Positions 11,495-22,993 of a DNA stretch of 33,588 bases are shown here, piece by piece. The translations under genes were made by a program, and so were the position numbers. Under the pieces are notes generated by a model. The model had not been told where the DNA came from, searched no databases, and saw nothing but the letters and a program-made list of their open reading frames with translations. The stretch's first letter is position 1, and every line of letters starts with the position of its first letter. The stretch is from Chlorobiota bacterium (GTDB lineage: Bacteria; Bacteroidota; Bacteroidia; Bacteroidales; JAADJA01): NCBI GenBank assembly GCA_013151015.1, contig JAADJA010000029.1, positions 1-33,588 of the forward strand. The letters run 5' to 3'.

Positions 11495-11549
<55 letters not shown>

Positions 11550-11569
<20 letters not shown>

Positions 11570-11672
11570 CAAAAAAGGTCATCGTCTCGGTGGCCTTTTT
11601 TAGTAAATGGCCGATTATGCAATATTATGTTTATGTCCTGCAATCCGAAAGTTCGGGGCTATATTACAAAGG
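11550..11672 (+). repeat. 123-bp direct repeat copy A (tRNA-His 3' end + terminator + GIY-YIG 5' end)
   Basis: Identical to 11999-12121 except 11635 G / 12084 A. Confidence 0.97.
11571..11601 (+). terminator. Intrinsic terminator-like hairpin after tRNA-His
   Basis: AAAAAAGGTCATCG-TCT-CGGTGGCCTTTTTT, 14-bp stem with two G-U pairs, ending in a T run. Confidence 0.85.
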
Positions 11673-11919
11673 CCAGACGAACAATGTTTCCCTTAGGCTG
11701 GAGAAACACAACAAGGGCTATGTGAAATCCACAAAAGCCTACCGTCCATGGAAACCGGTGTTCTTTACGACAGTTGAAACCCGGTCCGAAGCGGTGAAAC
11801 TGGAACGCAAGCTCAAAAACCTGAAAAGCAGGACAAGGCTCGGGGAATGGATTGACAAGAACAAGGGAATAAACAAGTGTCCAAAAGCACGGGGGGCCGT
11901 GGGTCCCGAAAAACAATAA
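11617..11919 (+). CDS. Small GIY-YIG nuclease family protein (UPF0213/YhbQ-like)
   Basis: MQYYVYVLQSESSGLYYKGQTNNVSLRLEKHNKG...RPWKPVFFTTVETRSEAVKLERKLK; the upstream part of ORF 11530 is tRNA/terminator read as protein. Confidence 0.88.
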   Translation: MQYYVYVLQSESSGLYYKGQTNNVSLRLEKHNKGYVKSTKAYRPWKPVFFTTVETRSEAVKLERKLKNLKSRTRLGEWIDKNKGINKCPKARGAVGPEKQ

Positions 11920-11940
11920 TCCCCAGCGGGCTGGGATTAT
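11916..11940 (+). terminator. Hairpin at the 3' end of the GIY-YIG gene
   Basis: ATAATCCCCAGC-GG-GCTGGGATTAT, one bulged C, followed by ATGTTTTT. Confidence 0.55.
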
Positions 11941-11945
11941 ATGTT

Positions 11946-11963
11946 TTTCGAGGATCCTCGAAA
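11946..11963. repeat. 18-bp perfect palindrome TTTCGAGGATCCTCGAAA
   Basis: Direct reading. Confidence 0.9.
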
Positions 11964-11995
11964 TACCATCGAAATTGGAAATTTCGGGTATTTCG
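11959..11995. repeat. Hairpin CGAAATACC-at-CGAAATT-gga-AATTTCG-GGTATTTCG
   Basis: 9-bp plus 7-bp perfect stems with a 2-nt bulge and 3-nt loop; ends 3 bp before direct repeat copy B. Confidence 0.9.
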
Positions 11996-11998
11996 GGA

Positions 11999-12121
11999 TT
12001 CAAATCCCATCATGCACCCAAAAAAGGTCATCGTCTCGGTGGCCTTTTTTAGTAAATGGCCGATTATGCAATATTATGTTTATATCCTGCAATCCGAAAG
12101 TTCGGGGCTATATTACAAAGG
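11999..12121 (+). repeat. 123-bp direct repeat copy B (tRNA-His 3' tail + terminator + truncated GIY-YIG start)
   Basis: Offset exactly 449 bp from copy A; GIY-YIG remnant MQYYVYILQSESSGLYYKG then out of homology. Confidence 0.97.
12020..12050 (+). terminator. Second copy of the post-tRNA terminator hairpin
   Basis: Identical to 11571-11601. Confidence 0.8.
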
Positions 12122-12144
12122 TCATCGGCTCGATGGCCTTTTTT
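12117..12144 (+). terminator. Third, diverged terminator hairpin
   Basis: AAAGGTCATCG-GCT-CGATGGCCTTTTTT. Confidence 0.8.
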
Positions 12145-12307
12145 CGTTAAATAACCCCCTTGCACATAAATGAACCAAGGTAAAGGATATATTTTTGGAA
12201 TTTTGCGGGGCAATAATAATCTTTCCTTTGGGGTTATGTAAATTGTTTGATGCTTTTATTACTTTTGCAGCACAACTTTTTAAATTGAAATTTGAACACA
12301 TAATACA

Positions 12308-21344: not shown

Positions 21345-21761
21345 TTACTCCCCAATGATTTTCACAAGAACCCGTTTTCTCCTTTTTCCATCAAATTCGC
21401 CATAGAATATTTGTTCCCAGGGACCAAAATCCAATTGACCTTTGGTGATGGCACAAACCACTTCCCTTCCCATAACCGTACGTTTAAGGTGGGCATCGGC
21501 ATTATCTTCAAAGCCATTGTGACGGTATTGCGAATAAGGTTTTTCCGGGGCCAGTTTTTCCAGCCATGTTTCATAGTCTTGGTGCAGGCCACTTTCATCG
21601 TCATTGATAAAAACACTGGCCGTAATGTGCATGGCATTTACCAGGCACAGGCCTTCCTGTACACCGCTTTCATGGATGCACACTTGCACGTCCGGGGTGA
21701 TGTTGATCAGTTGTCTTCTGCTGTGGGTTTGGAACCAGAGTTCCTTTCGGTATGATTTCAT
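21345..21761 (-). CDS. YjbQ/UPF0047 family protein (secondary thiamine-phosphate synthase type)
   Basis: 138 aa; [49 protein letters not shown]-like tail. Confidence 0.88.
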
Positions 21762-22276
21762 AAGTTTAATGTTTTAAGATTTTTTATTTTTTCGATTAAT
21801 GCACCTGGATTGAAATCTTCCCCCTTGATTGTTATCAATGCCTGTGAATAATAGGGGAGGCGTTTTTTTAAATGAACCTGGATATATCGTTTTAATTCAT
21901 CCGGTGATTTCCCTTCCACCAAAGGCCTTGGTCTTCTGGAAGCGCTAATGCGTTGGAACAACGACAAAATACCCATCTCAATGTAAACAGTTGTCCCGTT
22001 TTTGTTCATCAATTCCATATTGTCAAAAAAACAAGGTGTGCCCCCTCCCGTTGCAATAACCGTATCCGAAGAAAGGAAGGTGGACAAAAGGCTGTCATGT
22101 TCGATTTTCCGAAATGACTTCTCATCATATTTCCTGAAAATACCACTGACATCAATTTTGTATTTCCTTTCGATCATATCGTCAAGGTCGATAAACCCAT
22201 AACCAAGTTTTTTGGCCAATATTTTCCCAATCGTGGTTTTCCCACTTCCCATGTATCCAATTAAGTAGATTAACAT
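21758..22276 (-). CDS. aroK: Shikimate kinase
   Basis: [33 protein letters not shown]...[11 protein letters not shown]; start moved to 22276 because the ORF extension to 22342 translates the GTAATT repeat array. Confidence 0.92.
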
Positions 22277-22285
22277 ATTTATAAT

Positions 22286-22369
22286 GTAATTTACTTCGTG
22301 TAATTTGCACTGCGTGCGTAATTTACTACGGGTAATTTGCACTACGTGCGTAATTCGCTTTGCGTAATT
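22286..22369 (+). repeat. Tandem array: six GTAATT motifs in a 32-bp higher-order repeat (14+18 bp alternation)
   Basis: GTAATT at 22286, 22300, 22318, 22332, 22350, 22364; full units 22286-22317 and 22318-22349 match 29/32. Confidence 0.9.
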
Positions 22370-22399
22370 GATTAATGCATGGTTTTATACGAAGTTCTT

Positions 22400-22459
22400 A
22401 ATTACAACCAATTACAACTTAATTACCATCAATTACAACCAATTACCTTCCCTAATTAC
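22400..22459 (+). repeat. Phased array: six AATTAC motifs about 10-11 bp apart
   Basis: AATTAC at 22400, 22410, 22421, 22431, 22441, 22454; exact reverse complement of GTAATT. Confidence 0.9.
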
Positions 22460-22518: not shown

Positions 22519-22526
22519 TAATTTTG
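22519..22526 (+). promoter_or_regulatory. Bacteroidota -7 element (TAATTTTG)
   Basis: TAnnTTTG motif 21 bp before the DUF1573 ORF. Confidence 0.5.
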
Positions 22527-22546: not shown

Positions 22547-22993
22547 ATGAGGTCGATTTTTTTTCTTTTAATAACTGCTGGAATCCTGACATCTTGTGGG
22601 AACAATCGTGAAGGCGGAATCTCTACAGATGTTGTGAACAACCCTGTTTCAGCTTCAGGTGATAACTCCCTTGATGAATTGCCGTTAATCAGTTTTGATA
22701 AAGATGTACACGATTTCGGGAAAATAATCCAGGGCGAAAAAGTCTCTTTTAATTTCCGGTTTACCAATACGGGGAAAAGCGATCTGGTGATTTCCCAGGT
22801 AAATTCGTCATGCGGGTGTACCGTGACCCGTTTCCCAAAAACAGCGATCAAGCCTGGGGAAAAAGAAAAAATAACGGTGACCTTCGACAGTGAAGGCAGA
22901 AAGGGAATCCAAAACAAAACAATTACCGTGGCGAGCAATTGCCAGCCGAACAAAACAATACTTAGAATAAAAGCAATGGTGGTTACACCCTAA
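22547..22993 (+). CDS. DUF1573 domain lipoprotein
   Basis: Lipobox ILTSC; FDKDVHDFGKIIQGEKVSFNFRFTNTGKSDLVISQVNSSCGCTV. Confidence 0.9.
   Translation: MRSIFFLLITAGILTSCGNNREGGISTDVVNNPVSASGDNSLDELPLISFDKDVHDFGKIIQGEKVSFNFRFTNTGKSDLVISQVNSSCGCTVTRFPKTAIKPGEKEKITVTFDSEGRKGIQNKTITVASNCQPNKTILRIKAMVVTP

Follow-up and report, generated by a model that had tools for sequence, protein, structure and literature searches.

IVP/S23 proteins are widespread and their structures have been solved. Reading frames of this family are found in the intervening sequences (IVSs) of rRNA genes, where they lie between complementary ends and from where the insertion is excised by RNase III (PMC4990558). In the Coxiella IVS, the terminal inverted repeats form a 28-bp stem and tandem heptamers stand directly upstream of the start codon (PMC4990558). 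It has long been suspected that rRNA IVSs are what remains of mobile elements that moved by means of their reading frame, and the function of IVP/S23 proteins is not known according to the Coxiella work (PMC4990558). Here, we describe IVP genes placed between locus-specific inverted arrays of short repeats in operon gaps, together with copies of the arrays that have no gene. This arrangement is apparently undescribed; the protein family and the rRNA IVSs are already known. The literature searched, which was published and openly accessible, yielded no paper that places such genes between locus-specific inverted arrays in operon gaps or that reports gene-less copies.

The locus under study is an intergenic array in a window of 33,588 nucleotides, meaning the whole stretch of DNA that was analysed, from a Bacteroidota MAG of 4.3 Mb in 237 contigs (G000). 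GTAATT starts at positions 22286, 22300, 22318, 22332, 22350 and 22364 (spacing 14/18/14/18/14) and is followed by AATTAC at 22400, 22410, 22421, 22431, 22441 and 22454 (spacing 10/11/10/10/13), which are exactly the counts and spacings of the original prediction. A 32-bp unit, with copies 91% identical, and a unit of 10-11 bp were each recovered independently by two repeat finders, and the small stems expected in the former are present as GCAC-GCA-GTGC and GCAC-GTA-GTGC. The divergent flanks are also as predicted: the shikimate kinase gene aroK occupies 21761..22276 on the minus strand, and the array end is separated by 87 bp from the start of a gene for a DUF1573-type (choice-of-anchor-D-like) lipoprotein at 22547..22993 on the plus strand, a position outside any 23S rRNA gene. 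The excess of the motif over AT-rich background is large, with 12 sites in the array against 28 in the remaining 33.4 kb and 0.15 expected in the array (Poisson P ~1.7e-19); a first-order Markov simulation built from the region itself averaged 0.7 sites and never yielded more than 5 in 2000 runs. An Rfam search of the array region returned no match even at E 1. The predicted mirror orientation holds for the 6-bp cores, to which strict complementarity of the arms is confined, and fails for the arms as one long exact inverted repeat, no inverted pair of at least 12 bp being found between them. Elsewhere in the window, a GIY-YIG-like reading frame (11530-11919) comes after a tRNA-His gene (11496-11570). 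The start of this frame and the stretch preceding it recur in another copy, which is truncated and extends to 12173, so that 11496-12173 reads as a partial tandem duplication beside the tRNA.

A genome-wide search, as proposed originally, demonstrated that the window array is not a private regulatory array, since it recurs in its own genome and in related genomes. Three GTAATT at short spacing gave 39 overlapping matches in the source genome and 97 in the sister species G016, versus 0 and 4, respectively, for the reversed control pattern. Pattern searches and reading of the matched places put the number of intergenic GTAATT/AATTAC arrays in the source genome at about 15, with more sites in the sister species. 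Both G016 contigs that reach the aroK site terminate at this array. The comparison of copy numbers, also proposed at the outset, revealed wide variation, even between sister species. At one shared site, two plus about two intact units in the source genome (C10, L050) correspond to ten plus eleven in G016 (C68, L139), which indicates that array copy number changes fast, and about 40 units are found in the array at G016 C562. Array sites near G010 C451 and G016 C305 are common to distant species, and some copies must therefore be old rather than freshly inserted. The arrays L049, L051, L053, L055, L144, L145 and L147 adjoin another dispersed repeat, of the CGCCTTCGCAAGCTACGGACGG type, so that the source genome has gaps into which repeats of both families have gone. 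Strong variation at the same site, and the very long array at C562, are what a plain minisatellite would produce by replication slippage of short units in AT-rich gaps, any association with IVP genes being secondary. However, slippage yields direct arrays and not inverted ones, and here each arm holds the unit in one orientation without exception, and the same unit recurs at many unrelated sites.

The location between two divergent genes, the many units at 10-11 bp and the retention of the array in G016 could be taken as signs of a cis-regulatory site for aroK/DUF1573 that works through multi-site protein binding, phased curvature or leader structure. In G016, moreover, the first unit (L104, reverse strand, contig end) forms TTTG-N18-TAATTTTG toward aroK, by sequence a good match to a Bacteroidota promoter that has no counterpart in the window copy. 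The array also adjoins many unrelated genes with variable copy number and spacing, and in G004 the DUF1573-aroK pair is separated by an array-free gap of 152 bp, versus 270 bp in the window. The -7-box-like TAATTTTG ahead of the DUF1573 gene (22519..22526, plus strand), which we take to be a putative promoter element from its likeness to Bacteroidota -33/-7 promoters, is also present in that array-free gap of G004. A cis-regulatory site is regarded as quite improbable. As to its variants in the original prediction, protein binding at multiple sites of a single locus and phased curvature both sit badly with copy numbers that differ so widely between sister species and with the 68 of 181 spacings that are not 10-11 bp. 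Helical phasing as the purpose of the array was likewise considered and rejected: 113 of the 181 spacings are 10-11 bp, yet 13, 14, 15 and 18 are common.

A gene-bearing form of the same repeat was found in the source genome between nosL and nosY (C217), where a 5' array of GTAATTnnnn units is followed by a reading frame of 133 aa and a 3' reverse-complement array with small hairpins. The frame encodes a four-helix-bundle protein of the 23S_rRNA_IVP/TIGR02436 family (82.7 bits to PF05635 and 81.1 bits to TIGR02436), whose sole PDB match is Xanthomonas XCC0516 (2gsc). The nosL-nosY gap holds an IVP gene between GTAATT arms in three species (G000, G016 and G007), while in a fourth, G015, it measures 49 bp and contains neither gene nor array; in G003, an IVP relative with 70% identity lies between GTAATT arms at a different site. 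The polarity of full elements is fixed, with simple units in the arm upstream of the gene and hairpin units (GTGC-GCA-GCAC, GTGC-GAA-GCAC and AGCGAAGCG) in the downstream arm. IVP relatives that are 52-53% identical to the nosL-nosY protein occur in Brocadiaceae and Cloacimonadota MAGs (L187, L188), and the Cloacimonadota gene is flanked by hairpin-bearing arrays of its own, from which it follows that this type of element may cross phyla.

Read on the minus strand, in the sense of aroK, the window array shows the polarity of the full elements with 30 bp in the place of the gene. Its 5' arm (22400..22459, minus strand) consists of six GTAATT (AATTAC on the plus strand) in units of 10-13 bp without hairpins, like the simple 5' arms of L047, L138 and L180. 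The 3' arm (22286..22369, minus strand) carries six AATTAC (GTAATT on the plus strand) interleaved with the hairpin units GCAAAGCG, GCAC-GTA-GTGC, GCAC-GCA-GTGC and ACGAAGT, resembles the hairpin-bearing 3' arms of L047, L138, L179 and L180, and stops 9 bp from the aroK start codon. Between both arms, the 30-bp spacer (22370..22399) occupies the position where the full-length elements L047 and L138 have the IVP gene, and no IVP or other coding remnant is recognisable in it. This polarity, together with the spacer in place of a gene, speaks for a gene-less derivative rather than a full member. Its membership in the repeat family of IVP-array elements is well supported, and it is probably a MITE-like, gene-less derivative of a relative of the rRNA intervening sequences that resides in mRNA gaps.

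Other IVP genes of the source genome are flanked by different inverted arrays (AGAAGT/ACTTCT; GATGAC/GTCATC), an observation that motivated a wider test across 104 IVP loci, 102 of them usable, nearly all from the same order with a few from other phyla added by similarity. When each upstream flank was scored against the reverse complement of its downstream flank, the median was 23, compared to 12 for flanks of different loci and 13.5 in direct orientation. Inverted similarity exceeded the 95th percentile of the null at 67/102 loci (5 expected), against 1/24 for aroK control flanks, and the 99th at 35/102. As the null was built from flanks of further IVP loci, alike in composition, the test is conservative. 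A 6-mer with at least 3 copies per side, inverted, was shared at 43/102 loci versus 1.9% of cross-locus pairs. At 88/102 loci, G predominates over C on the sense strand ahead of the IVP gene and C over G behind it, with a GC skew of +0.32 upstream and -0.18 downstream, and RNA pairing of a locus's own arms reaches -73.7 kcal/mol, compared with -53.7 kcal/mol for mixed arms. About one third of the 102 loci show no significant inverted flank match, and direct repeats are present at several IVP loci. The frequency of inverted arms around IVP genes, well beyond what the null and the controls give, argues against slippage as the sole cause, and a plain minisatellite is considered unlikely.

The repeat unit of these arrays differs by locus and drifts even inside one IVP subfamily, from GTAATT to GTCATT. 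IVP proteins that are at least 60% identical nevertheless have similar arrays (upstream median 18 versus 12), and array sequence common to close relatives implies that unit and gene travel together. A GNA-triloop rule, of the kind known from DNA mini-hairpins, was suggested by the GCA, GTA and GAA loops of the GTAATT family and then discarded, as loops of other kinds are also present and the IVP flanks taken together showed no excess of GNA. The odds are about even that the IVP four-helix-bundle genes of Bacteroidota at large mark out a big and so far undescribed class of selfish elements, which would be to mRNA gaps what intervening sequences are to rRNA. Such elements would be bounded by inverted arrays that match within an element though the unit differs between elements, and would give rise to gene-less copies like the one upstream of aroK.

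IVP elements are mostly sense-oriented within operons, in the gaps between genes. Neighbours are co-directional with the IVP gene in 165/192 cases, against a rough baseline of about 68% counted from gene order in the window, and GTAATT-type arms often start 7-15 bp past the stop codon of one gene or reach to within 7-19 bp of the start codon of another. Of these two tendencies, the window element follows the one for start codons; the gene on its upstream side is divergent and not an operon partner. Directly ahead of the dihydrofolate reductase gene, two species carry an IVP element whose arms are of the GAATTGGTT type (L262 and L281), apparently a conserved site. At L066/L071 (G000:C79), an IVP domain is in frame with an outer-membrane-efflux-type frame within an open frame of 365 aa, apparently through an insertion that truncated the efflux-type gene.

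The mechanism that we propose leans on the rRNA intervening sequences. The element would insert as one unit into transcribed gaps, and its two arms would pair in RNA with the IVP frame held in the loop, as in rRNA IVSs. RNase III could then trim the arm stem and render the insertion tolerable, and the IVP protein may help to copy or insert the element that encodes it and, in trans, gene-less copies. In the window, the element would constitute the leader of aroK. The element is presumed to be mobile; the genomes compared include species with and without the insert, and no insertion event was observed among them. The window arms can pair (-25.3 kcal/mol), but comparison with shuffled sequences gives z values of -1.1 to -2.1 (-1.1 for the minus-strand RNA), so folding of the window copy by itself is unconvincing, and the large cruciform of the original prediction draws little from it. 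If this explanation is correct, the inverted locus-specific arrays around most IVP genes in the order would be an obvious substrate on which to test IVP/S23 proteins. Split rRNA genes, orphan IVP genes and a large class of short-repeat arrays between genes would also be linked to one another, and an origin for arrays of this sort would be at hand.

Several known systems share features with these elements. Avd accessory proteins of diversity-generating retroelements are counted in the same four-helix-bundle family as IVP; on inspection of the surroundings of the gene-bearing copy L047, no reverse transcriptase was recognised. REP/BIME palindromes mobilised by RAYT (Y1 HUH) transposases consist, as here, of many copies of intergenic hairpins with a short tag, and an unrecognised REP-type element was the nearest of the four options put forward originally, correct in that the array is a repeated intergenic sequence. 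Small hairpins beside a fixed tag (GTAATT/AATTAC) do resemble tagged REPs, and the source genome encodes Y1 transposases at six loci, but none of these six genes has a GTAATT array within ~1.5 kb. The units vary by element, many IVP elements with other units lack obvious hairpins, and the gene between the arms is IVP and not a transposase, which renders mobilisation by RAYT very unlikely. MITEs, among them one of Porphyromonas that contains an internal minisatellite (PMC4596501), are likewise small, gene-less and intergenic with inverted ends. Their probable dependence on a full element also has its parallel here, as a matching full element was found. They differ in that neither terminal inverted repeats of the transposase type nor a target-site duplication could be identified in the present elements, whose arms are arrays instead of one repeat and whose putative parent has an IVP gene. 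In the 23S rRNA IVSs of Coxiella, Leptospira and others, an S23p/IVP frame is also placed between complementary ends. Unlike these, the elements described here reside in the gaps of protein-coding operons, their arms are arrays of units with 6-bp cores that vary by locus, and gene-less copies such as the one upstream of aroK exist.
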